From: a virus
Direction: 5' to 3' (one strand)
Length of the DNA stretch: 36,368 nt
Virus record (IMG/VR): IMGVR_UViG_3300025674_000150
Location: 1-36,368 of that record
The translations under genes and the position numbers were made by a program. Positions within the stretch are counted from its first letter, which is position 1. Each line of letters begins with the position of its first letter. The notes beneath the pieces were generated by a model. That model saw nothing but the letters and a program-made list of their open reading frames with translations, had not been told where the DNA came from and did not search any database. Positions 4,171-12,208 of this stretch are shown here, piece after piece.

Positions 4171-4566
4171 TACATAAAATGATTATGCCCCAAAAATACC
4201 TTAATGTTGCACAAAAATTAGGCACATTGCACAGTGCTTGTGCATATATACTCAACAGTTACCCGTGTGGTTAACACTCAATTTTACTGATCTGTGTATT
4301 TGTCCATGAATACGTACGTAGACCCCGGTGGTGGCCCCTGCCTACCGTCGCTTGCCGTGACAGTTGAGGCTGATTTCGCCTGATAAATCAATGCCTTGTG
4401 TCTAGCTGGCAGAAAAACACCATATATAGAAGCGGCCCGGTAACTGTTTGCATATCAGTTAACGCCAGCCCGTGACAGGCAAGGCCAAAGCTGCAGGGAT
4501 TGCGGTTAAATCAGAACGGCGATGCATCTAATCAACACAAGCCCTGCAGCAACCCTACCGTCAGCC

Positions 4567-4583
4567 TGTCTGAACATCAGACA
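4567..4583. promoter_or_regulatory. 17-bp palindrome, copy 1 (centre ACA)
   Basis: TGTCTGAACATCAGACA: seven-base arms TGTCTGA and TCAGACA around a three-base centre. It is the leftmost of ten copies and the only one not near a start codon, lying about 190 bp before the first rightward promoter. Confidence 0.85.
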
Positions 4584-4616
4584 ACCCTCACCGGTCATGC
4601 CTGTTTATATCCTGTA

Positions 4617-4645
4617 ACCGACACCGACACACCTAAAACCGACAC
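4617..4645 (+). repeat. Three ACCGACAC direct repeats (iteron-like)
   Basis: ACCGACAC occurs at 4617-4624, 4623-4630 (sharing two bases with the first) and 4638-4645. Short tandem repeats in the non-coding switch region are typical of replication-initiator or regulator binding sites. No protein can be assigned to them. Confidence 0.5.
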
Positions 4646-4771
4646 GATATTGCCACTATAAATAGGGCAGCAATCCTGTCTTACTATTGAAATATAATTA
4701 CCGACTGGGCAGCCTTTCACGAAAGAATATTGTTATTTTGGCCTTGTCAAATTATTGACGGGCTTGACAGA

Positions 4772-4800
4772 TTGACTGGCTCAAATAGCCCTGATATAAA
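4772..4800 (+). promoter_or_regulatory. Sigma70 promoter for the first rightward gene
   Basis: TTGACT (4772-4777), 17-base spacer, TATAAA (4795-4800); five of six bases match consensus in each hexamer. Predicted start is near 4807, giving a ~78-base leader containing a TGTCTGA palindrome and a CCGGT-GAT-ACCGG hairpin. Two further TTGAC boxes precede it at 4755 and 4764, spaced 8-9 bp, which could be regulator sites or alternative -35 elements. Confidence 0.75.
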
Positions 4801-4835
4801 CCTATTCATTATCTGCAATCCCGTAGATAACAGCT

Positions 4836-4852
4836 TGTCTGATGTTCAGACA
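4836..4852. promoter_or_regulatory. 17-bp palindrome, copy 2 (centre TGT)
   Basis: TGTCTGATGTTCAGACA, which is copy 1 read from the other strand. It lies at about +30 of the 4772 promoter, in the leader of the 206-residue early gene, and so could block elongation or translation of that gene. Confidence 0.85.
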
Positions 4853-4857
4853 GCAAT

Positions 4858-4870
4858 CCGGTGATACCGG
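4858..4870 (+). promoter_or_regulatory. Leader hairpin at the first rightward gene
   Basis: CCGGTGATACCGG forms a five-base-pair perfect stem with a three-base loop. It abuts the GGGGAAAG ribosome binding site of ATG 4885, so folding could affect initiation. It follows copy 2 of the 17-bp palindrome by five bases. Confidence 0.5.
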
Positions 4871-4884
4871 GGAAAGAACAAGTC

Positions 4885-5505
4885 ATGAAAAACGTACGTA
4901 TCAACAAGGCACAAATCGCAACCGCAACCGCTGCAGTCGAAGCTTTCAACAGCGCAGATGCATCAATCTGGATTGCTGTTGAAGCTGGCATCAAGTTGGG
5001 CAAAACGCTGATAACAGTGACAGCCCGCTGCACCGATGCAAACGGCAAGCTTGATGCATCAGCATTCGATGCAGCGCTTGTGGCCCTGAAATTGCGGGAC
5101 CGTGTACGGGGCGATGAAGATAAGCGGACAACGGCGCAACGTGAAAAGAACGGCCTTTCACGTGACAACCGGTCGCTTTGCATTCAGCTTGCTAAGGCCG
5201 GTCTGCCGAAGATTAAGAAAGCCTATGACCGGAAGGTAAAGGCCAACCCGTCATACAAGGCCAACAGCGTCAGCGGCATGATCAAACTGATCAAAGCGAC
5301 TGACCCGAAAGCCAAGGCAGCCGCCAAGAACAGGCCGCCAATGGCACTGGATCAAGCGATTGCAAATTATCTTGCATTCGCCCGTAAGCATCACGGCATG
5401 ACTAGCACCGAAGCGGTTGCCGCTGTTTCCAAGTTTTACGACAATCTGTCTGGCGCAATTGTTGATGCAGACAATGAGTTGGAAAAAGCACGCAAAGCTG
5501 CATAA
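4885..5505 (+). CDS. First early gene; candidate regulator of the TGTCTGA palindromes
   Basis: A 206-residue, Ala/Lys-rich, largely helical protein starting MKNVRINKAQIATATAAVEA. ATG 4885 is chosen over the in-frame GTG 4861 because GGGGAAAG lies just before it. I recognise no domain. The middle is highly charged (LRDRVRGDEDKRTTAQREKN) and is followed by a basic segment (LPKIKKAYDRKVKANPSYKA). The C-terminal part contains TSTEAVAAVSKFYDNLSGA. Copies of the 17-bp palindrome flank the gene at 4836 and 5508, it has its own promoter and a strong terminator, and its GC content seems higher than its neighbours'. That layout fits an autoregulated DNA-binding protein or an immediate-early takeover protein. 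The DNA-binding role is inference only. Confidence 0.85.
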   Translation: MKNVRINKAQIATATAAVEAFNSADASIWIAVEAGIKLGKTLITVTARCTDANGKLDASAFDAALVALKLRDRVRGDEDKRTTAQREKNGLSRDNRSLCIQLAKAGLPKIKKAYDRKVKANPSYKANSVSGMIKLIKATDPKAKAAAKNRPPMALDQAIANYLAFARKHHGMTSTEAVAAVSKFYDNLSGAIVDADNELEKARKAA

Positions 5506-5507
5506 CC

Positions 5508-5524
5508 TGTCTGAACATCAGACA
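5508..5524. promoter_or_regulatory. 17-bp palindrome, copy 3 (centre ACA)
   Basis: TGTCTGAACATCAGACA, two bases after the stop codon of the 206-residue gene and three bases before the stem of the terminator at 5528. The pair could work together as a regulated termination site. Confidence 0.85.
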
Positions 5525-5527
5525 ACC

Positions 5528-5556
5528 GGGTCGCCCTTCGGGGCGGCCCTTTTTTT
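5528..5556 (+). terminator. Rho-independent terminator with UUCG loop
   Basis: GGGTCGCCC, a TTCG loop, then GGGCGGCCC followed by seven T residues. The nine-base stem has one G-T wobble. It isolates the first early gene as its own transcript. Confidence 0.9.
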
Positions 5557-5582
5557 GTGCCTATTTTTTATTGGCATATGTC

Positions 5583-5668
5583 TATGACAGTAGTGGGGTG
5601 GCATGGTGTTGCAGCCTGTCTGAACTTCAGACAAGTAAGAGAGAGGGGGTATGACAGTAGTGGGGTGG
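5583..5668 (+). repeat. 19-bp direct repeat around palindrome copy 4
   Basis: TATGACAGTAGTGGGGTGG occurs identically at 5583-5601 and 5650-5668, 67 bp apart, with the 17-bp palindrome copy 4 between them. Both contain an ATG in the same relative place, but the frames they open are short and unconvincing (the second has only eight codons). The repeat may mark a small duplication or a pair of protein-binding sites. Confidence 0.6.
5617..5633. promoter_or_regulatory. 17-bp palindrome, copy 4 (centre ACT)
   Basis: TGTCTGAACTTCAGACA, inside the non-coding stretch 5557-5833, between two copies of a 19-bp direct repeat and upstream of the promoter at 5714. Confidence 0.85.
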
Positions 5669-5713
5669 TGTTGGTGATGGTGCAGGGGTCTAAAAATAGT
5701 TCCCGACTTCAGG

Positions 5714-5742
5714 TTGCATTTTGTGGTTGTGTTTGCTAATAT
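5714..5742 (+). promoter_or_regulatory. Sigma70 promoter before the 80-residue early gene
   Basis: TTGCAT (5714-5719), 17-base spacer, TAATAT (5737-5742). The surrounding bases are shared with the promoter at 6084: both are preceded by AAAAAT-GTTCC-GAC and have nearly the same spacer (TTGTGG, TTGT, TTTGC). This supports a duplicated early promoter. Predicted start is near 5749. Confidence 0.7.
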
Positions 5743-5760
5743 GAGGAACATTATGGAAGT

Positions 5761-5777
5761 TGCATCACGGTGATGCA
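5761..5777. promoter_or_regulatory. Second type of 7-3-7 palindrome
   Basis: TGCATCACGGTGATGCA has seven-base perfect arms and a three-base centre, the same geometry as the TGTCTGA family but a different sequence. It lies at about +13 to +29 of the 5714 promoter, where a repressor would block transcription. It is 19 bp before palindrome copy 5. Confidence 0.55.
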
Positions 5778-5795
5778 GCAAGGTTAATCACAGGT

Positions 5796-5812
5796 TGTCT
5801 GAAGTTCAGACA
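5796..5812. promoter_or_regulatory. 17-bp palindrome, copy 5 (centre AGT)
   Basis: TGTCTGAAGTTCAGACA in the leader of the 80-residue gene, 21 bases before its ATG and directly upstream of the GGAAGGGG ribosome binding site. Confidence 0.85.
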
Positions 5813-5833
5813 AGCAGATGGAAGGGGATACAC

Positions 5834-6076
5834 ATGAAAGACAAAGGTTTTGAAGGGGGCAACGTAGTGCCTATCACGGTGGGTCGAGTGACCTCATCGT
5901 GGGTGGAGATGCCCAGCGAGGCGAACCAACGCACCAAGCGTGGGTACACATGCATGGACGTGGGGCAAGCTGATGCTTCGTGGTCTACCTACCTGAAGGC
6001 AGCGGATCAGGAAAAGCGACAAGCTGTGTCCGCTAATCTCAAGGCGGTGTTGGAGCGTCACAAAAATCGTTCCTGA
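5834..6076 (+). CDS. Small early hypothetical protein
   Basis: An 80-residue product starting MKDKGFEGGNVVPITVGRVT. ATG 5834 follows GGAAGGGG at good spacing; an in-frame start further upstream would read through the palindrome and is rejected. The C-terminal half is helical (WSTYLKAADQEKRQAVSANL, then KAVLERHKNRS). It has its own promoter and palindrome leader. No family recognised; small early phage proteins of this type often alter host functions. Confidence 0.75.
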   Translation: MKDKGFEGGNVVPITVGRVTSSWVEMPSEANQRTKRGYTCMDVGQADASWSTYLKAADQEKRQAVSANLKAVLERHKNRS

Positions 6077-6083
6077 CATCCGC

Positions 6084-6112
6084 TTTACATTGTGGATTGT
6101 TTGTGCTAAGTC
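6084..6112 (+). promoter_or_regulatory. Sigma70-like promoter before gene 6168
   Basis: TTTACA (6084-6089), 17-base spacer, TAAGTC (6107-6112). The -10 is weak on its own, but the flanks and spacer match the 5714 promoter closely, which suggests a duplicated element. Predicted start is near 6119, with palindrome copy 6 at about +20. Confidence 0.6.
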
Positions 6113-6131
6113 TTATGCACAATTCGATATC

Positions 6132-6166
6132 AACTAGCTGTCTGAAGTTCAGACAAGGAGAACAGA
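6132..6166 (+). repeat. 35-bp stop-palindrome-RBS cassette, copy A (contains palindrome copy 6)
   Basis: Positions 6132-6166 are identical to 6801-6835. The unit contains CTAG, the 17-bp palindrome TGTCTGAAGTTCAGACA (6139-6155), then AGGAGAACAGA, whose AGGAG serves as ribosome binding site for ATG 6168. The last palindrome base touches the ribosome binding site, so an RNA stem or a bound protein could block initiation. Confidence 0.85.
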
Positions 6167-6167
6167 G

Positions 6168-6377
6168 ATGACTGAAGTTTATTTGGTGAACATGAAGCAC
6201 GGCAGTGCGGACTACACATCTGCCCACTACAAGTCCGGTGATTGGATATGCTTCCGCAGTACGCATGACATCAAGGCTGCGACTGAGATGGCAGAGAACC
6301 TGCGTGAAGGTGGGTGGGAAGTGATCGTGCAGTCTGTGCTGCTGGATGCAAATGGGGGAGTTAAGCTTGATGGGTAA
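6168..6377 (+). CDS. Small early hypothetical protein
   Basis: A 69-residue product starting MTEVYLVNMKHGSADYTSAH, with an ideal AAGGAG ribosome binding site supplied by the repeat cassette. It reads like a compact alpha/beta fold (STHDIKAATEMAENLREGGW, then EVIVQSVLL). No family recognised. The next gene starts eight bases before its stop, so translation is coupled. Confidence 0.8.
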   Translation: MTEVYLVNMKHGSADYTSAHYKSGDWICFRSTHDIKAATEMAENLREGGWEVIVQSVLLDANGGVKLDG

Positions 6378-6555
6378 GATTGCAGGATGCATGTTCATGG
6401 TGGTGGTGAGTGCGTTTGTCTCGCCATTCGCCTTTATCAACCTAATGGAAACAGGTGGACCTATCTGGGCTTATGCCTTGGTGGCATGTGGTGTCTGCTT
6501 TGGTGGTGGCTGGGTTGCTGCTGCGTTCTATCTGGAGGAAAGATACGATGATTAA
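6370..6555 (+). CDS. Small membrane protein, two transmembrane segments
   Basis: A 61-residue product from ATG 6370, chosen because GGGGGAG lies nine bases before it. There are two hydrophobic segments, about residues 4-24 (IAGCMFMVVVSAFVSPFAFI) and 33-55 (AYALVACGVCFGGGWVAAAF), joined by a short polar turn and followed by a charged tail (LEERYDD). An early two-helix membrane protein could be a holin-like or superinfection-exclusion protein; the early position argues slightly for exclusion or membrane takeover. Overlaps both neighbours by 8 bases. Confidence 0.75.
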   Translation: MGKIAGCMFMVVVSAFVSPFAFINLMETGGPIWAYALVACGVCFGGGWVAAAFYLEERYDD

Positions 6556-6814
6556 TATTGATCAGCAATGGCGTGAGGGTAAGACATTGATGCGCATGTC
6601 TATGTACAAGGCTCATGTGCATGACTGCGAGAACACCCGACGGCATTTTGATGTGCCGCCACTCGACTGGCACACATTCAAGTTCCGGGTGTGGCCTGAC
6701 TTTGAGAAGTATGTATCAATGGGTGGTGATATGAAACTGCGGCGGCGTATGCAGTGCATAGACCATGCCTTTAATTTAGCTGGGCATATTCAACGTAAAA
6801 AACTAGCTGTCTGA
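6548..6814 (+). CDS. Small early hypothetical protein
   Basis: An 88-residue product starting MINIDQQWREGKTLMRMSMY from ATG 6548, with GGAGGAAAG upstream, overlapping the previous stop by eight bases. Basic and His/Trp-rich (CENTRRHFDVPPLDWHTFKF). Its stop codon TGA (6812-6814) lies inside palindrome copy 7, so the repeat cassette supplies the end of this gene. No family recognised. Confidence 0.75.
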   Translation: MINIDQQWREGKTLMRMSMYKAHVHDCENTRRHFDVPPLDWHTFKFRVWPDFEKYVSMGGDMKLRRRMQCIDHAFNLAGHIQRKKLAV

Positions 6815-6835
6815 AGTTCAGACAAGGAGAACAGA
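6801..6835 (+). repeat. 35-bp stop-palindrome-RBS cassette, copy B (contains palindrome copy 7)
   Basis: Identical over 35 bases to 6132-6166. The palindrome is at 6808-6824 with centre AGT. Here the cassette encodes the last residues LAV and the stop of the upstream gene, and provides the AGGAG for ATG 6837. Confidence 0.9.
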
Positions 6836-6836
6836 A

Positions 6837-7541
6837 ATGACGTATCAACTTATCGGTGTGGGTAACAACGCCAAGACCATCAAGGGTGATGGTTCAGAGT
6901 ATCTGACTGCTATCAAGTACATGCAGCCCTACAAGACTATGTTCAAGGGCAAGGTGCATAACCTGTGCGCTATGGCTGACATGGCTGGGTGTGCAGAGCC
7001 GTGCCTTAGATGGGCTGGCCGTGGTCAAATGTCCAGCGTTCAACGTGGGCGAGAACGCAAGACCATGTGGTATCTGTCTGACCGTGTGGGTTTCATGGAT
7101 GCGCTTGTCAATGACATCACGGTGTTCAGGCGGCGGTGTATCAAGAATGTTGTGCAGCCATGCGTCCGTCCCAATGGCACTAGCGACATCATGTACGAGA
7201 AGTCTGGCATCATGGAGCAGTTTCCCGATGTACAGTTCTATGACTACACGAAGATTGTCAAACGTGCCTACGCTGACCTGCCACCTAACTACCACCTCAC
7301 GCTGTCGTACAGTGAGGCTGACATGGACTATGCAGACAGTGTGCATCAGGCTGTGCTTGACACTGGCGTCAACATGGCTGTAGTATTCCGTCACAGCTTG
7401 CCGGACACCTTCCGTGGGTTGCGTGTCATTGACGGTGACAAGGACGACCTGCGATTCCTTGACCCCAAGGGTGTAGTCGTTGGCCTTGTGGCAAAGGGCA
7501 AGAAGGCCAAGCAGGACACGTCCGGCTTTGTTATCAACTAG
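6837..7541 (+). CDS. GP88-family phage protein
   Basis: A 234-residue protein starting MTYQLIGVGNNAKTIKGDGS. Several segments match my recollection of the phage gene-88 family (GP88): YLTAIKYMQP, a cysteine cluster (C44, C52, C56) in HNLCAMADMAGCAEPCLRWA, VRPNGTSDIMYEKSG, FYDYTK, LPPNYHLTLSYSEADMDYAD and DGDKDDLRFLDPKGVVVGL. Length fits the family. The function is not established to my knowledge; the conserved cysteines and the many conserved polar residues suggest an enzyme or metal site. Ribosome binding site from cassette B; the stop TAG is part of the next cassette. Confidence 0.85.
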   Translation: MTYQLIGVGNNAKTIKGDGSEYLTAIKYMQPYKTMFKGKVHNLCAMADMAGCAEPCLRWAGRGQMSSVQRGRERKTMWYLSDRVGFMDALVNDITVFRRRCIKNVVQPCVRPNGTSDIMYEKSGIMEQFPDVQFYDYTKIVKRAYADLPPNYHLTLSYSEADMDYADSVHQAVLDTGVNMAVVFRHSLPDTFRGLRVIDGDKDDLRFLDPKGVVVGLVAKGKKAKQDTSGFVIN

Positions 7542-7565
7542 CTGTCTGAACATCAGACAAGGAGA
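7536..7565 (+). repeat. Stop-palindrome-RBS cassette, copy C (palindrome copy 8, centre ACA)
   Basis: AACTAGC, palindrome TGTCTGAACATCAGACA (7543-7559), then AGGAGA. It matches cassettes A and B except for the two changes that turn centre AGT into ACA. The CTAG provides the stop codon of the GP88 gene, and AGGAG the ribosome binding site of ATG 7572. Confidence 0.85.
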
Positions 7566-7571
7566 TGTATA

Positions 7572-7952
7572 ATGACATACGCAGTACACATGCAGACTTT
7601 GGAGAACTATGGCGCACATGACAATGACGGTAAGTTTGAGAGTGGTAATGCCTACTGGAAATTCAAGGGTGGTGATACATACCTTGTGTCAGGTGTTGAC
7701 CGACCAGCGGACGCTATGGCATTCGTGATGGCGACCTTCGCTGTCAACAGTATCGGCGTCAAGGAGATACCCACAGACGTGGAGACACAGGCTGAGTGGG
7801 AGGCCAAGCTGGCTGATCTCAGCGAGGATTATCAGGAGTTCCTGTGGGAGACTGTCAATCGCATTGACGTGCCTACATTCTTCGACGGGAAAGAAGCACC
7901 CCGCTATTATCATCAGGCTGCACATGCACAGGGAAAGGAATTAGTACAATGA
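7572..7952 (+). CDS. Early hypothetical protein
   Basis: A 126-residue acidic product starting MTYAVHMQTLENYGAHDNDG. It shares the MTY start with the GP88 gene but no further similarity is visible. Notable segments are YWKFKGGDTYLVSGVDRPAD and WEAKLADLSEDYQEFLWETV. No family recognised. The stop overlaps the next ATG by four bases (ATGA). Confidence 0.8.
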   Translation: MTYAVHMQTLENYGAHDNDGKFESGNAYWKFKGGDTYLVSGVDRPADAMAFVMATFAVNSIGVKEIPTDVETQAEWEAKLADLSEDYQEFLWETVNRIDVPTFFDGKEAPRYYHQAAHAQGKELVQ

Positions 7953-8215
7953 TTTATCACTGCTCACATTGGGAACTTTTGTCAGGCACTAAGAATGTCT
8001 GGAAAGCTATGAACTCAAACAACACCAAGAGTGTCCTTGTCGTGAAGGACATTGGGTGCTGGGTGCTGGACATCACGTATCTCAACGGCAAGGGAGGGCA
8101 TTATTCGGCGCACAACACTCGTGACGAAGCGTTCCGCAAAGCTGAAGAACAGGCGTGTTGGCTGGTAGATGAAAATTTTCATCCGATGGTGGTTGACAAT
8201 GGTCAAACGTCCTGA
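7949..8215 (+). CDS. Early hypothetical protein
   Basis: An 88-residue product starting MIYHCSHWELLSGTKNVWKA, coupled to the upstream gene by ATGA and overlapping the next gene by 17 bases. A compact alpha/beta pattern is visible (KSVLVVKDIGCWVLDITYLN; NTRDEAFRKAEEQACWLVDE). No family recognised. Confidence 0.75.
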   Translation: MIYHCSHWELLSGTKNVWKAMNSNNTKSVLVVKDIGCWVLDITYLNGKGGHYSAHNTRDEAFRKAEEQACWLVDENFHPMVVDNGQTS

Positions 8216-8366
8216 TACTGTAAATCCTATCGCTAAAGCACTGCTTCAAACGCACAGGAGACGGCAGCAAGTAGTGCCAGACAAAACAAAGTACAACAGA
8301 AAGAAGGAGAACAAAGATCATGCAAATCAAAGTAGAAAGCATGAAGCGGGTGACGCCAAAGACTGA
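8199..8366 (+). CDS. Small basic phage protein
   Basis: A 55-residue product starting MVKRPDTVNPIAKALLQTHR with RRRQQVVPDKTKYNRKK in the middle, strongly basic. ATG 8199 lies inside the upstream gene. I recall similar short VKRPD-like, Arg-rich proteins from roseophages, without a known role. The next small gene starts inside its 3' end in another frame. Confidence 0.7.
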   Translation: MVKRPDTVNPIAKALLQTHRRRQQVVPDKTKYNRKKENKDHANQSRKHEAGDAKD

Positions 8367-8463
8367 CAGTCAGCGTGACCACTGGCGTCGTGTGAATAAG
8401 TCTAAGAAGCTTACTCGCAAGGCGCAGCGTCAGGCTAAGTTGTTTCAGCAACGTGCTGCCTGA
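8320..8463 (+). CDS. 47-residue basic protein
   Basis: An open frame of 48 codons from ATG 8320, with an AAGGAG ribosome binding site 9 bases before it. The product begins MQIKVESMKRVTPKTDSQRD and ends AKLFQQRAA; it is Arg/Lys/Gln-rich and helical. It overlaps the upstream gene by 47 bases in another frame. The stop TGA is two bases before palindrome copy 9. Likely real because of the strong ribosome binding site and exact fit; function unknown. Confidence 0.65.
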   Translation: MQIKVESMKRVTPKTDSQRDHWRRVNKSKKLTRKAQRQAKLFQQRAA

Positions 8464-8465
8464 CC

Positions 8466-8482
8466 TGTCTGAACTTCAGACA
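8466..8482. promoter_or_regulatory. 17-bp palindrome, copy 9 (centre ACT)
   Basis: TGTCTGAACTTCAGACA, two bases after the stop at 8463 and 67 bases before ATG 8550. Confidence 0.85.
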
Positions 8483-8491
8483 ACAAACATT

Positions 8492-8519
8492 GAGTTAGCC
8501 GCAATGGTGTGGCTATCTC
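8492..8519 (+). promoter_or_regulatory. Leader stem-loop before gene 8550
   Basis: GAGTTAGCC and GGCTATCTC can pair (eight of nine positions) around a ten-base loop. There is no T-run, so it is not a standard terminator. It sits between palindrome copy 9 and the ribosome binding site and may act with it. Confidence 0.4.
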
Positions 8520-8549
8520 ACCCAAACCAACAGTAAAAGGAGACATATC

Positions 8550-8798
8550 ATGTCATACATCAAAGTCAAAGCTATCAACCTCGTTCACGCACTCTCAGGT
8601 GCCAAGCCTTCGATTGACCGTACCAATGAGCGTGACTTCAATCACATGGGCAAATACTATGCTGGACCATCTGAGAATGGTCAGTTCTTTCAGGTTAATG
8701 ATGGCAAGCACATCCGTTACTACGGCATGCCATTCTACAATCTGTATCGGATTGTGTCCAAGAACGGTAGTGACTTTGTAATCCATGAGGCTAAGTAG
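8550..8798 (+). CDS. Early hypothetical protein
   Basis: An 82-residue product starting MSYIKVKAINLVHALSGAKP with AAAAGGAG upstream. Tyr-rich middle and end (NHMGKYYAGPSENGQFFQVN; RYYGMPFYNLYRIVSK). No family recognised. It is followed by a G/C-rich hairpin and then by the HNH gene. Confidence 0.75.
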   Translation: MSYIKVKAINLVHALSGAKPSIDRTNERDFNHMGKYYAGPSENGQFFQVNDGKHIRYYGMPFYNLYRIVSKNGSDFVIHEAK

Positions 8799-8808
8799 TC
8801 TCGCCAAC

Positions 8809-8830
8809 GGGGTGGCTTTCGGGTCACCCC
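8809..8830 (+). terminator. Possible weak terminator or spacer hairpin
   Basis: GGGGTG pairs with CACCCC around a ten-base loop containing TTTCGGG; only ATTT follows, so it is a poor intrinsic terminator. It could partly end transcripts before the HNH gene or stabilise the 3' end of the upstream message. Confidence 0.4.
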
Positions 8831-8848
8831 ATTTCACAGGAGATTGTA

Positions 8849-9280
8849 ATGATACCAATAACTCAATACACAGTAGACGACTACAACGTGACTGTCTTCC
8901 GGGGGCATGTGCGTGAGGATGGACGTATCCTGCACGGCATCCGATCTGACGGCGTTCTTGAGTGGCGTTTACCTAATGCCTTCAAGAATCACGAGAAGAA
9001 CAGACGCAAGCGTAACTCTGAGCGTCGTGCTAGGCGTAAGCGTTGGCTGGATAAGTATAAGCTGCATAAAGGCTGCAGTGTCTGTGGCAACAAAGATATG
9101 CATCCTTGGCTGCTGCAGATGGATCACATTGACCCATCCACCAAGAAGGCAAACGTCGGTGACCTTGCTACAGGTAGCCTAAAGAAACTCATGGCAGAGG
9201 TACGCAAGTGTCGTATCATTTGTTTCCCTTGCCATGTGAAGCACACAACTGAACAGAACAAGATAGAGGAAGTGACGTGA
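8849..9280 (+). CDS. HNH endonuclease
   Basis: A 143-residue protein. The zinc-ribbon and HNH core is in the C-terminal half: C76-S-V-C79, then LLQMDHIDPSTKKANVGDL with D92-H93, and C125-F-P-C128-H129. The N-terminal half is extremely basic (NRRKRNSERRARRKRWLDKY), suiting DNA binding. Such free-standing HNH genes in phages are either homing endonucleases or nicking enzymes in packaging or host DNA breakdown. A position among small early genes, away from terminase, fits a selfish homing element better; that is inference. Ribosome binding site AGGAG before ATG 8849. Confidence 0.85.
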   Translation: MIPITQYTVDDYNVTVFRGHVREDGRILHGIRSDGVLEWRLPNAFKNHEKNRRKRNSERRARRKRWLDKYKLHKGCSVCGNKDMHPWLLQMDHIDPSTKKANVGDLATGSLKKLMAEVRKCRIICFPCHVKHTTEQNKIEEVT

Positions 9281-9459
9281 AGACGATAACTGTGAACATC
9301 AAACACGAAGACCGCACCATACTTGAACGTAAGGTGGAGGATTACTTTCGTGGCTATCACCCATTCGGGTATGGCACTAGGCTGGAGACACCAGCGTACT
9401 ACGACGAAGACCAGCAATGTTGGGTGGCTGTGATATCCCGACACACCTCTTGTGATTAG
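9277..9459 (+). CDS. Small hypothetical protein, GTG start
   Basis: A 60-residue product from GTG 9277, which overlaps the HNH stop as GTGA. Starts MKTITVNIKHEDRTILERKV and continues GYHPFGYGTRLETPAYYDED. The tight overlap supports the unusual start. No family recognised. Confidence 0.7.
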   Translation: MKTITVNIKHEDRTILERKVEDYFRGYHPFGYGTRLETPAYYDEDQQCWVAVISRHTSCD

Positions 9460-9470
9460 GGAGATTGACA

Positions 9471-9638
9471 ATGGAACTACCGCTTGACCACGAGCCTAGT
9501 CTTAACCACTGGGCGAAGTGTATCGCTGACCATGACCTAGAGACCGGCCTTCACACAAATTGGGATCATGCCTACGAAGAGGCATGGCATGGGCTGGATG
9601 CTGAATTTAACTACACTTATGAATATCAACTTGGATAG
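9471..9638 (+). CDS. 55-residue acidic protein
   Basis: A 56-codon frame from ATG 9471 to TAG 9636-9638, with GGGAG upstream. The product begins MELPLDHEPSLNHWAKCIAD and ends NYTYEYQLG; it is acidic and rich in His, Trp and Tyr. Its stop overlaps the AGGAG ribosome binding site of the next gene. Likely real by spacing; function unknown. Confidence 0.65.
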   Translation: MELPLDHEPSLNHWAKCIADHDLETGLHTNWDHAYEEAWHGLDAEFNYTYEYQLG

Positions 9639-9648
9639 GAGAATGACT

Positions 9649-9894
9649 ATGGCAAAACAAAAGACAGAATGGGAACTACGCCGTGAGGCTGCGACTAAAT
9701 CGTGGAAGTCTATGACTCCACACCAGCAAGAAGCTATGATGACACTGCTCAAGGCATGGGTGCCGATTCGCACACGTGTCAGTGAGATGTGTTCCCTTGA
9801 CTACGATGATCTACGTGCAGTTGACCAAGCATGGTGGAAAGTCAAAATGGCACTTGTTGACAAGGACGTTGAGATTAAAGAGTGGGACTTTTAA
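9649..9894 (+). CDS. Early hypothetical protein
   Basis: An 81-residue product starting MAKQKTEWELRREAATKSWK. ATG 9649 is preferred to ATG 9643 because AGGAG (9637-9641) is seven bases away. It is helical, with Trp-rich stretches (ADQAWWKVKMALVDKDVEIK-like end, reading VDQAWWKVKMALVDKD). The stop overlaps the next start (TAATG). No family recognised. Confidence 0.75.
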   Translation: MAKQKTEWELRREAATKSWKSMTPHQQEAMMTLLKAWVPIRTRVSEMCSLDYDDLRAVDQAWWKVKMALVDKDVEIKEWDF

Positions 9895-10313
9895 TGTTTG
9901 CAGAAGCACTCGTATGCCTTGCACTGAACGTGTATCACGAAGCCCGTGACCAGCCCTTCATTGGGCAGGTTGCGGTAGCCCAAGTGGTAATGAACAGAGT
10001 ATATGACGATAGGTATCCTGACACTGTATGTGATGTGGTCAAGCAAGGTCCAACGTACTCATGGAAGCAGGACTTCCCTGTCCGTCACCGCTGTCAGTTT
10101 AGCTGGTATTGCGACGGTAAGTCAGACAAGACACCTGACCAGACAGCGTGGCAGCAAGCTATGTTGATTGCACAGGGTGTACACACAGGCAACCTTGACG
10201 ACTTCGTTGAGGGTGCGACACACTACCATGCAACCTATGTTCTGCCTGAATGGGCAGAAAGCAAGATTCCTGTCGTACAAATAGGTGACCATATGTTCTA
10301 TAGGTGGGACTAG
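9894..10313 (+). CDS. SleB-type cell wall hydrolase (endolysin candidate)
   Basis: A 139-residue protein matching the Hydrolase_2/SleB family of peptidoglycan-cleaving enzymes: CLALNVYHEARDQPFIGQVA (E16 as the likely catalytic acid), VAQVVMNRVYDDRYPDTVCD, and CQFSWYCDGKSD. The family core is about 120 residues, so this is essentially a lone catalytic domain. The N-terminus MFAEALVCLALNV is mildly hydrophobic but belongs to the domain, so export probably needs a holin. It starts at ATG 9894 overlapping the upstream stop. Its place in the early rightward block rather than in the late block is unusual for a lysis enzyme. Confidence 0.88.
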   Translation: MFAEALVCLALNVYHEARDQPFIGQVAVAQVVMNRVYDDRYPDTVCDVVKQGPTYSWKQDFPVRHRCQFSWYCDGKSDKTPDQTAWQQAMLIAQGVHTGNLDDFVEGATHYHATYVLPEWAESKIPVVQIGDHMFYRWD

Positions 10314-10369
10314 TGGATATTATTATCTCACTACTCATCTTTTTAGTACTAGCAGCGTTGACTTTGTGA
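10313..10369 (+). CDS. Possible 18-residue membrane peptide
   Basis: A 19-codon frame beginning at GTG 10313, which overlaps the stop of the wall-hydrolase gene. The product is MDIIISLLIFLVLAALTL, a single hydrophobic span with one acidic residue. AGGTGG lies six bases upstream. A mini-holin or lysis-control peptide would fit next to a wall hydrolase, but such a short frame may be chance. Confidence 0.35.
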   Translation: MDIIISLLIFLVLAALTL

Positions 10370-10386
10370 TATCTTAGTGATATAAC
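10358..10386 (+). promoter_or_regulatory. Sigma70 promoter before the DUF932-like gene
   Basis: TTGACT (10358-10363), 17-base spacer, TATAAC (10381-10386). Predicted start is near 10393, about 30 bases before ATG 10423. It would drive the DUF932-like gene, the integrase and the replication genes. Confidence 0.8.
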
Positions 10387-10422
10387 AGAGTAACAGTTAA
10401 CAATCACGAAAGGAGAACTACC

Positions 10423-11283
10423 ATGCCCTTAGACTTTACCTCAAATGATATCGTACCTGATCACATCAACTTCCCTGTGGAGTTTGAGCCAACCAAGTAT
10501 GACAAGTCCAAGTATGTCATTAATGGCGATACAGGCGAATACCTTGGCATCGTCGGCAGCACCTTCAAATGTGCCAGCCACGGTGACTTCTTCACCCGTG
10601 CGCACAACGCTATCTCTGAGCATCTTGGAGAAAGCTTCTGTGAAAGCATGAACATCAGCTTCGATGCGGCACGTAACAATGCATGGGTCAAGATGGACAT
10701 GCGTATGCCTAATGTCCTTCGCAAGATTGAGACAGACAAGCATACCACTACCATTGCACCACGCCTTATTGCTCTACACGGTATTGATGGTAGCTGCTCC
10801 AATCAGGTGTACTACGGTGCTATTGACTTCTTCTGCACCAATGGAATGGTCACAGGTGACTATGACAAGATCAAACGTAAGAATACCAGTCGTTTCGATC
10901 TAGAGACGTTCATTGATGAACTTCAGCACACTGTGTCTGATTTTCACAACACGGCTGATGTGTATCAGAAATGGGCTGAGACAAAACTGCACACTGTTGA
11001 TGTCAAGGCTCTGCTTGATACCATCATCACGGATTCAGATCGTAAGGCACAAAAGATGTTCAGCTTATGGTGTCAAGAAGTCAGTACACGTGGCTGCAAT
11101 ATGTGGTCTCTGTACTCTGCCTTTACGAACTATGCTAGTTACGCTGACGAGAAGAATGGGTTCACACTGAAGAACACTAACAACGATACCGCCGCTACAT
11201 CTATGTGGTCACGTGAACAAGAGGTAGCTAAGTGGATTGCTAGCCCTCAGTTCCGTCGGTTGTCTGAACTTCAGACAGCGTGA
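10423..11283 (+). CDS. DUF932-family protein
   Basis: A 286-residue protein with AAAGGAG upstream. It resembles the DUF932 (phage/plasmid-related) family: an N-terminal YVINGDTGEYLGIVGSTFK segment, then the central IAPRLIALHGIDGSCSNQVY and GAIDFFCTNGMV segments, followed by a helical C-terminal half. The family is common in phages and plasmids near replication genes; its biochemical role is not established. The last codons (encoding LSELQTA) are formed by palindrome copy 10, so a regulatory site is embedded in the coding sequence. The integrase ATG follows the stop by one base. Confidence 0.8.
   Translation: MPLDFTSNDIVPDHINFPVEFEPTKYDKSKYVINGDTGEYLGIVGSTFKCASHGDFFTRAHNAISEHLGESFCESMNISFDAARNNAWVKMDMRMPNVLRKIETDKHTTTIAPRLIALHGIDGSCSNQVYYGAIDFFCTNGMVTGDYDKIKRKNTSRFDLETFIDELQHTVSDFHNTADVYQKWAETKLHTVDVKALLDTIITDSDRKAQKMFSLWCQEVSTRGCNMWSLYSAFTNYASYADEKNGFTLKNTNNDTAATSMWSREQEVAKWIASPQFRRLSELQTA
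11261..11277. promoter_or_regulatory. 17-bp palindrome, copy 10 (centre ACT), inside a coding end
   Basis: TGTCTGAACTTCAGACA within the 3' end of the DUF932-like gene, seven bases before the integrase ATG at 11285. It occupies the place where the integrase ribosome binding site would be expected. Confidence 0.85.
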
Positions 11284-11284
11284 C

Positions 11285-12208
11285 ATGATGTCGCAGCTTA
11301 CTGAACTCGTACAGGACTACTACAAGTCCTATGATTACAGGAACTTACGTGATGAAACTAAGAAACAATATGAATACTTCATCAACGTAATGCTCAACAC
11401 TGAGGTGGACGGACAGGCTCTGTCCACCTTCGACTACACATCTTTGCCAACACGTGCGGCGAAGGTTGCGTACAACCAATGGTGCGAGAAAGGTATTCAT
11501 ATGGCTAATCATATCATGTCAGCAACGTGTATTGTTTTTAATCACGGTCTGCGCATGGAGATGTGCGTTATAAATCCTTTCGCTAACGTGCGTAGGAGAA
11601 CGCCTGAGAGGCGTAAGACTGTCTGGACTAGGGATGATATCCAAAAGTTCCTAGACGCAGCGTACAGTGATTTTAATACTCGTAACATAGGTTTGATTGC
11701 GCACATGGCATATGCTTGGTGCCAACGTCTAGGAGATATGAGACTACTAAAGTGGGAAAGTATACATTTTGATAGTCAGACTATACAAATTGAACAGTCC
11801 AAGCGTAAAGCAGACGTGCATCTACCCATTGACGACGACTTATGCGACATGTTGAAGCAGCAAGAAGAAGACTTCGGCTTTCAGAAGTATGTTGCCCCAC
11901 GCCCATATGCAATTCAGGGTGAGTTTAGACCATACAGCTTGCAAAAACTGCCTACATATGCACGTAGGGTAATGGATGACGCTGGCTTGCCGCAGGAACT
12001 GCGACTATCTGACCTGCGACGTACTGGTACAACGGAAATGGTGGAAGCTGGTGTAGGTATGGCACAAATTATGTCGGTTACAGGACATGCAAATCCTAGT
12101 TCAGTAAAACCGTATATGAAAAATACGTTGAAGAGTGCAAATTTAGCTTTGACAGAACGTAGAATGCATGCTACAAGCATACCAACTGCCGCAAAGGAGA
12201 GTGAATAA
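11285..12208 (+). CDS. int: Tyrosine-type integrase
   Basis: A 307-residue tyrosine recombinase. An N-terminal core-binding (SAM-like) domain covers about residues 1-105. The catalytic domain shows R148 (CQRLGDMRLL), a lysine at 173-175 (SKRKADVHL), R245 in LSDLRRTGTT, H268 (VTGHANPSS) and the nucleophile Y277 (VKPYMKN). The usual His of the H-x-x-R box is Ser (S242). ATG 11285 is chosen as the first in-frame ATG after the upstream stop; an adjacent ATG at 11288 is equally possible. No Shine-Dalgarno sequence is visible, but palindrome copy 10 is directly upstream. It implies a temperate or once-temperate phage. No attachment site was found. Confidence 0.92.
   Translation: MMSQLTELVQDYYKSYDYRNLRDETKKQYEYFINVMLNTEVDGQALSTFDYTSLPTRAAKVAYNQWCEKGIHMANHIMSATCIVFNHGLRMEMCVINPFANVRRRTPERRKTVWTRDDIQKFLDAAYSDFNTRNIGLIAHMAYAWCQRLGDMRLLKWESIHFDSQTIQIEQSKRKADVHLPIDDDLCDMLKQQEEDFGFQKYVAPRPYAIQGEFRPYSLQKLPTYARRVMDDAGLPQELRLSDLRRTGTTEMVEAGVGMAQIMSVTGHANPSSVKPYMKNTLKSANLALTERRMHATSIPTAAKESE

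Follow-up and report, generated by a model that had tools for sequence, protein, structure and literature searches.

We found that the early region of an HMO-2011-like phage contig, a virus record of 36,368 bases referred to here as the window, contains ten copies of the 17-bp palindrome TGTCTGAnnnTCAGACA, all of them within positions 4567-11277 and none elsewhere in the contig. Judging from the sequence comparisons presented below, these palindromes are likely to constitute the dispersed operator array of a phage-encoded, autoregulated DNA-binding regulator, most likely the protein encoded at 4885-5505. The replication genes of the window matched Puniceispirillum phage HMO-2011 (76.5% identity, covering 22% of the first 24 kb); their match to Roseobacter phage CRP-345 was weaker. 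Past approximately 4.9 kb the genes are transcribed rightward. Close relatives with the same palindromes included L016, L137 (the contig of L076), L134 and L135, among others.

The array spans 6.7 kb of the early region (Table 1). Allowing up to three mismatches on both strands, the pattern gave 22 matches, whereas 100 shuffled sequences averaged 1.75 and reached at most 6; the reversed-pattern control gave 0 matches. The initial annotation had described a 35-bp repeat, present in three units (A, B and C) that would supply stop codons, the palindrome and a ribosome-binding site for the next gene. The three units are real, but they contain only three of the ten palindromes. As had been proposed, the cores at 6132-6166 and 6801-6835 were identical (40 of 41 bases were equal between units A and B over 6132-6172 and 6801-6841), and the near-copy at 7536 presented 80% identity over 41 nt, its first 30 bases being common to the others except at the palindrome centre. 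The AGGAG element was found behind the palindrome in all three copies, and the described stops of the upstream genes, on TGA in copy B and on TAG in copy C, were both confirmed. The supply of a stop codon did not extend to copy A, where no gene ends and where the CTAG is unused as a stop since the preceding gene already terminates at 6076. The extended flanks AACTAGC and AGGAGAACAGARATGAC were common to A, B and partly C only, and were absent from all but the nearest relatives; in the remaining seven copies the common part consisted of the palindrome plus one or two bases. Near the palindromes, a terminator-like call on the + strand was obtained at 5528 only, with none at units A-C.

Table 1. 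Palindromes and associated features of the early region of the window
Feature	Position	Strand	Context
Palindrome 1, TGTCTGAACATCAGACA	4567..4583		Non-coding, upstream of the candidate regulator gene
Palindrome 2, TGTCTGATGTTCAGACA	4836..4852		33 nt before the start of the candidate regulator; 36 nt past an extended -10-like element
Candidate regulator gene P0001	4885..5505	+	206 aa, pI 9.9; between palindromes 4836 and 5508
Palindrome 3	5508..5524		Adjoins the stop codon of the candidate regulator, 3' side
Intrinsic-terminator-like hairpin	5528..5549	+	Closes the candidate regulator unit
Palindrome 4	5617..5633		
Palindrome 5	5796..5812		21 nt ahead of gene 5834-6076
Unit A	6132..6172	+	AACTAG; palindrome 6139-6155; AGGAG; start of gene 6168
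Unit B	6801..6841	+	Palindrome 6808-6824 holding the TGA stop of gene 6548-6814; AGGAG; start of gene 6837
Unit C	7536..7576	+	TAG stop of gene 6837-7541; palindrome 7543-7559; AGGAG; start of gene 7572
Palindrome 9	8466..8482		Adjoins the stop of gene 8320-8463, 3' side
Palindrome 10	11261..11277		In the final codons of gene 10423-11283, just ahead of the integrase gene
Integrase-like gene	11285-12208		

Other repeated or conserved elements were observed in the same region. Upstream of the array, a non-coding block at 4256-4342 was 83% conserved in the distant relative L094 and partly conserved in L156. A 19-bp repeat, TATGACAGTAGTGGGGTGG, flanks the palindrome at 5617 on either side (5583-5601 and 5650-5668), and G-rich GTGGTGG tracts similar to it lie behind the regulator terminator in L094, L213 and L166.

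Relatives of the window also had palindromes scattered over this early region, at the same gene junctions; each genome had a uniform type, and the types differed between lineages. A de novo palindrome scan detected at least five copies of one palindrome in 25 of 124 records (several of the 25 are duplicate records of the same contig), as compared with 0 of 496 shuffles, three of which reached four copies. In HMO-2011, AGTCCGACAGCGGACT occurred five times, near record positions 53878, 54808, 61, 1261 and 1926, in places like those of the window: on both sides of gp74 and between a stop codon and an SD sequence. Further types were TGTAACGnCGTTACA in L156, TGTAGCAnnTGCTACA in L162, GTGrTAAwTAyCAC in L160 and L213, TCGGATATCTGA in L170, TATGCGTnrCGCATA in L171, TTTTCAysrTGAAAA in L177, GTTCGAnnnTCGAAC in L183, ATCCCAAsTTGGGAT in L184, TCCCAAGTTGGGA in L193 and TTACCAAGTTGGTAA in L191. 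When 12 motifs were tabulated against 29 records the result was essentially diagonal, with three mixed cases (L166, L213 and L171); the motifs entered for L178 and L193 miss their own sites, the flanks having been written too strictly, and both arrays were found by the scan. L229 showed no such array in the de novo scan, yet a motif search located three GTCCRA sites in it. No array (fewer than three copies) was found in the scanned parts of CRP-2 (16 kb), CRP-3 (20 kb), CRP-207, CRP-603 and CRP-212 (one end only for the last two). Some three-copy loci (e.g. L139, L141 and L180-L182) were dropped as they fell within the shuffle range, and the AT-rich array of L232 (four copies) is doubtful.

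Twenty-three records with an array extend to the beginning of the early region, and each contains, among its first rightward genes, one for a protein of 178-321 aa with palindromes around or within it; for L129, L130 and L204 the stretch analysed has no upstream site. Two regulator families were defined by iterated HMM searches, family A in the window, its near relatives and L094, and family B comprising HMO-2011 gp74, L221, L223, L224, L226, L204, L229, CRP-345 gp01 and CRP-1 gp01. Family A was accompanied by TGTCTGA sites in three of three records (near-identical copies left out) and family B by GTCCRA sites in nine of nine, a correlation part of which linkage alone could produce, the sites being near neighbours of the regulator gene. 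For 11 of these 23 records (L156, L162, L170, L171, L177, L183, L184, L187, L191, L193 and L213) the gene was chosen by position and not by homology, and for these we infer its identity as the regulator. Comparison of the two family profiles with hhalign revealed no detectable relation (probability 0.1). No credible family assignment from Pfam, PHROG or NCBIfam and no recognizable DNA-binding domain was obtained for any regulator scanned, and a tblastn search of P0001 against the phage collection gave no match. Structural models were weak, with a mean pLDDT of 55 for P0001 (poor) and 68 for L204; a PDB fold search with the L204 model retrieved nothing with an E value below 0.9, and a BFVD fold search with the same model gave one match, S4S2E1, whose 205 aa equal the length of HMO-2011 gp74. 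The first 120 residues presented a net charge of at least +5 in 21 of 23 proteins, a set that includes two of the freshwater group described below.

The position of the sites relative to the candidate regulator gene followed a limited number of arrangements. In 10 of the 23 records a site was located inside the regulator ORF, at codons 117-148 in eight of these, which span four regulator groups (family B, L162, L183 and L193); the L183 and L193 proteins present at most weak similarity to family B. In the near-identical L187 and L191 the internal site was at codons 71-76, with one mismatch. The linker residues read SDVG where the family B operator is GTCCGA (L229) and SNVG where it is GTCCAA (L129, L130, L204 and L226). 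Residues 114-145 of the L204 model had a pLDDT below 50, as expected of a flexible linker that connects the helical N-terminal part of the predicted structure to its two C-terminal helices. In eight other records a site starts 3-24 nt past the regulator stop codon, and in the remaining five (L156, L170, L171, L177 and L184) the next site lies 128-205 nt past it.

Across lineages, an SD-like sequence with a start codon was present within 60 nt downstream of 83 of 147 sites (24 records); positions drawn at random from these spans gave 1323 of 4800. The sequence TTGACn-N16-18-TAnnnT preceded 15 of 150 sites at a distance of up to 90 nt, as compared with 171 of 7200 random positions. Many sites are related by descent, so these counts, and those of symmetry given below, are not independent. 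Eleven of the 15 promoter-like sequences end 36-44 nt before the palindrome, and a protein bound at those sites would, to judge by this spacing, sit downstream of the transcription start. We relied on the multi-lineage count because the promoter scan of the window was unconvincing, with 15 promoter-like sites against 12.5 expected and none convincing at the palindromes.

Since most sites lie in leaders or between a stop codon and an SD sequence, they could instead function in the transcript, as an RNA hairpin that is bound by a protein or processed and so controls translation of the next gene or mRNA stability. Six examples were predicted to fold with MFE values of -6.6 to -12.3 kcal/mol (z -0.3 to -2.9), which is compatible with such a role. 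The symmetry of the sites, however, argues for a DNA target: the arms were perfect at 121 of 152 sites, and among the 39 mismatched arm pairs only 8 were G-T, the other 31 breaking an RNA stem. Moreover, the would-be loops vary and their centres occur in both orientations (ACA/TGT and ACT/AGT), and the complementarity runs into the loop itself, the innermost pair being symmetric at 80 of 150 sites. We therefore regard an RNA hairpin as improbable. Still harder to sustain is binding by a host transcription factor, to which the sigma-70-like sequences upstream of some sites might point, given that the palindrome follows the phage regulator family across hosts, GTCCRA being found in HMO-2011 (SAR116) as well as in CRP-1 and CRP-345 (Rhodobacteraceae). 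Partition systems likewise combine dispersed symmetric sites with a small basic helical protein, and the array could in outline resemble one, with a ParB-like factor packaging or segregating the phage genome without specific regulation. Nevertheless, no ParA or ParB family match was obtained among the ten early proteins scanned, and the sites are linked to gene starts, stops and promoter-like sequences, making this a very remote prospect too.

The initial annotation had interpreted the units chiefly as module linkers, that is, recombination joints for the swapping of accessory early genes, and had suggested that related phages be compared for gene gain or loss at these positions. Such exchanges do occur. 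In close relatives we identified four events of gain, loss or replacement in which an end coincides exactly with a palindrome. In L016, the approximately 250 bp that separate palindromes 4567 and 4836 are missing; the junction falls within a palindrome, and this single copy combines the left flank of one window copy with the right flank of the other. Gene 6548-6814 is replaced by a different small gene in L016 and L137, homology restarting at unit B, its right boundary, and L137 carries two extra genes, a small one directly behind the AGGAG of unit C and one of approximately 130 codons directly behind palindrome 11261. Single palindromes of foreign type were also found at gene junctions of distant relatives. 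The members of the gene pair at 8320-8798 are separated by TGTCTGAACTTCAGACA in the window, as in L137, and by TGTAACGCCGTTACA in L213 and L166; L094 has GTAATCAGTGATTAC at the matching place, behind its 8320-type gene. L213 is otherwise of the GTGrTAA type and L094 of the TGTCTGA type, so these junction palindromes are orphans; those of L213 (9700) and L166 (near 1709) match the array of another lineage. Across the orphan site, L213 and L166 share 95% identity over 1743 bp. The palindromes of L166 are mixed, two belonging to one type and one to a different type. In addition, one gene that is 88% identical in L156 and L177 is preceded by different palindromes in the two. Differences away from palindromes were observed as well, at 9464-9891 in several relatives and at 9280-10306 in L101. 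Palindromes coincided with 5 of 10 breakpoint ends and with 7 of approximately 18 gene junctions (tallied by eye from BLAST pieces and not exhaustive), which indicates no clear preference beyond ordinary gene-boundary mosaicism. A role chiefly in recombination would leave unexplained the match with regulator families, the sites inside the regulator ORF and those past promoter-like sequences, and the extended flanks on which it was founded are not conserved; we consider it unlikely as the primary function. The capacity of the sites to serve as joints follows from one sequence being repeated at many gene junctions.

Two side observations concern L166 and L094. In L166, an unrelated 242-aa gene (498-1226) occupies the place of the regulator and ends right at a palindrome. 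L094 contains, near 11272 and 10289 on the minus strand, the perfect palindromes TGTCACTCAGTGACA and GTAATCAGTGATTAC, once each, in stop-palindrome-SD-start junctions, and these are possibly orphan sites of lineages outside the records examined.

The operator reading, in which regulation comes first, is favoured by the match with lineage-specific regulators, by the sites inside ORFs and by those approximately 36-44 nt past promoter-like sequences. According to this model, P0001 would bind the dyad as a dimer and limit its own synthesis through the sites before its start and just past its stop codon (inside the ORF in other lineages), and it would control the rightward early operon through intergenic sites and sites in 5' leaders. 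The protein is probably a repressor acting as a roadblock, the simplest mode being obstruction of RNA polymerase, which would silence the early genes or dampen their expression. The regulator would have diverged jointly with its sites, giving each lineage its own specificity, and the presence of the same sequence at many junctions would allow the sites to double as joints for the gain, loss and swap of small early genes. More tentatively, and with somewhat less than even confidence, we propose that regulator and operators form a system that diversifies rapidly and has no relation to known repressors, in which each regulator gene carries its own operator, in several lineages in the codons of a flexible interdomain linker; early genes would travel with their operator linkers, so that regulon capture and exchange would be one process, and foreign sites would persist as orphans.

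A role in lysogeny or immunity may be considered, since integrases occur in HMO-2011-type phages, as noted in the genomic survey PMC9038755, and integration of CRP-3 has been demonstrated according to PMC6918029. Such a role is doubtful, as CRP-3 had no array in the 20 kb scanned. A scan of genome contigs gave five matches, all to MAG contigs of 29-63 kb, none of which was recognized as an integrated prophage. These five (L249-L253) carry an HMO-2011-like gene on contigs labelled Flavobacteriales, Neomarinimicrobiota and Euryarchaeota and are probably misbinned phage contigs, given that contigs of equal length occur in two MAGs of different phyla.

The nearest functional parallel appears to be the stoperators of Cluster A (L5-like) mycobacteriophages. 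In PMC6550527 and PMC9283540, these are described as many dispersed sites for the immunity repressor Rep, with motif and regulator co-diverging, and as asymmetric sites, mostly in one orientation, recognized by a monomeric protein that carries two DNA-binding domains. The palindromes resemble them in being many, near-identical, dispersed and located in short intergenic regions near starts and stops, with a phage-encoded protein that has sites around its own gene and with joint divergence of motif and regulator. Unlike stoperators, they are symmetric, occur in both orientations and are restricted to the early region, and the candidate regulators match no known repressor family, being set apart from Rep by the family scans. 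For the module-linker idea, the closest analogue would be the PeSL (promoter-early stem-loop) cassettes of T4-like phages (Arbiol 2010 and Comeau 2014, as cited in PMC4503421), which are likewise short repeated regulatory cassettes in early intergenic regions and are tied there to gene shuffling. The units described here differ from PeSL in having neither an internal promoter nor a stem-loop terminator (promoter-like sequences precede only the 15 sites mentioned above) and in having a lineage-specific sequence coupled to a phage protein. The SAS of Cluster K mycobacteriophages (13 bp, SD-containing) and the ESAS (an imperfect 17-bp repeat pair with a variable spacer), as presented in PMC3203893, share with the palindromes a location just upstream of start codons, an AGGAG contained in or adjoining the repeat and, at times, inverted repeats; here, by contrast, the dyad itself is conserved and the SD sequence varies.

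The array extends over 6.7 kb with ten sites, many of them past promoter-like sequences or between genes and not overlapping promoters, and no HTH was found in the candidate regulators scanned; in these respects it differs from lambda-type immunity operators, dyad sites for a small phage repressor that also differ between immunity groups. PMC9038755 describes HMO-2011-type phages as dominant in the ocean and as broadly distributed there, and the word 'repressor' is absent from the main text of that survey and of PMC6918029. Palindromic operators of SAR116 phages, or dispersed palindromic intergenic operators of phages, were not found in the open-licence full-text literature searched. If correct, the operator reading would name the missing regulator of HMO-2011-type phages and give its binding sites in more than ten lineages, with specificity classes readable from sequence, and the data allow testing of how a regulator and ten scattered sites shift specificity together.

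The palindrome TGTCTGAnnnTCAGACA was also observed at gene junctions of three freshwater phages, with five to eight copies each in L043 (4020-8010), L061 (5814-9486) and L087 (2402-7187). The possibility that these encode a relative of P0001 was rejected, the best hmmsearch E values being 0.42 for family A and 0.06 for family B, and the freshwater protein located between palindromes is unrelated to P0001. A TGTCTGA palindrome beside an unrelated protein in these relatives of Cluster A actinophages would make the strategy convergent. The metallophosphoesterase of L061 was nearest to those of Cluster A mycobacteriophages, and L087 encodes, between two palindromes, a 214-aa protein without known function that has a relative in L043.
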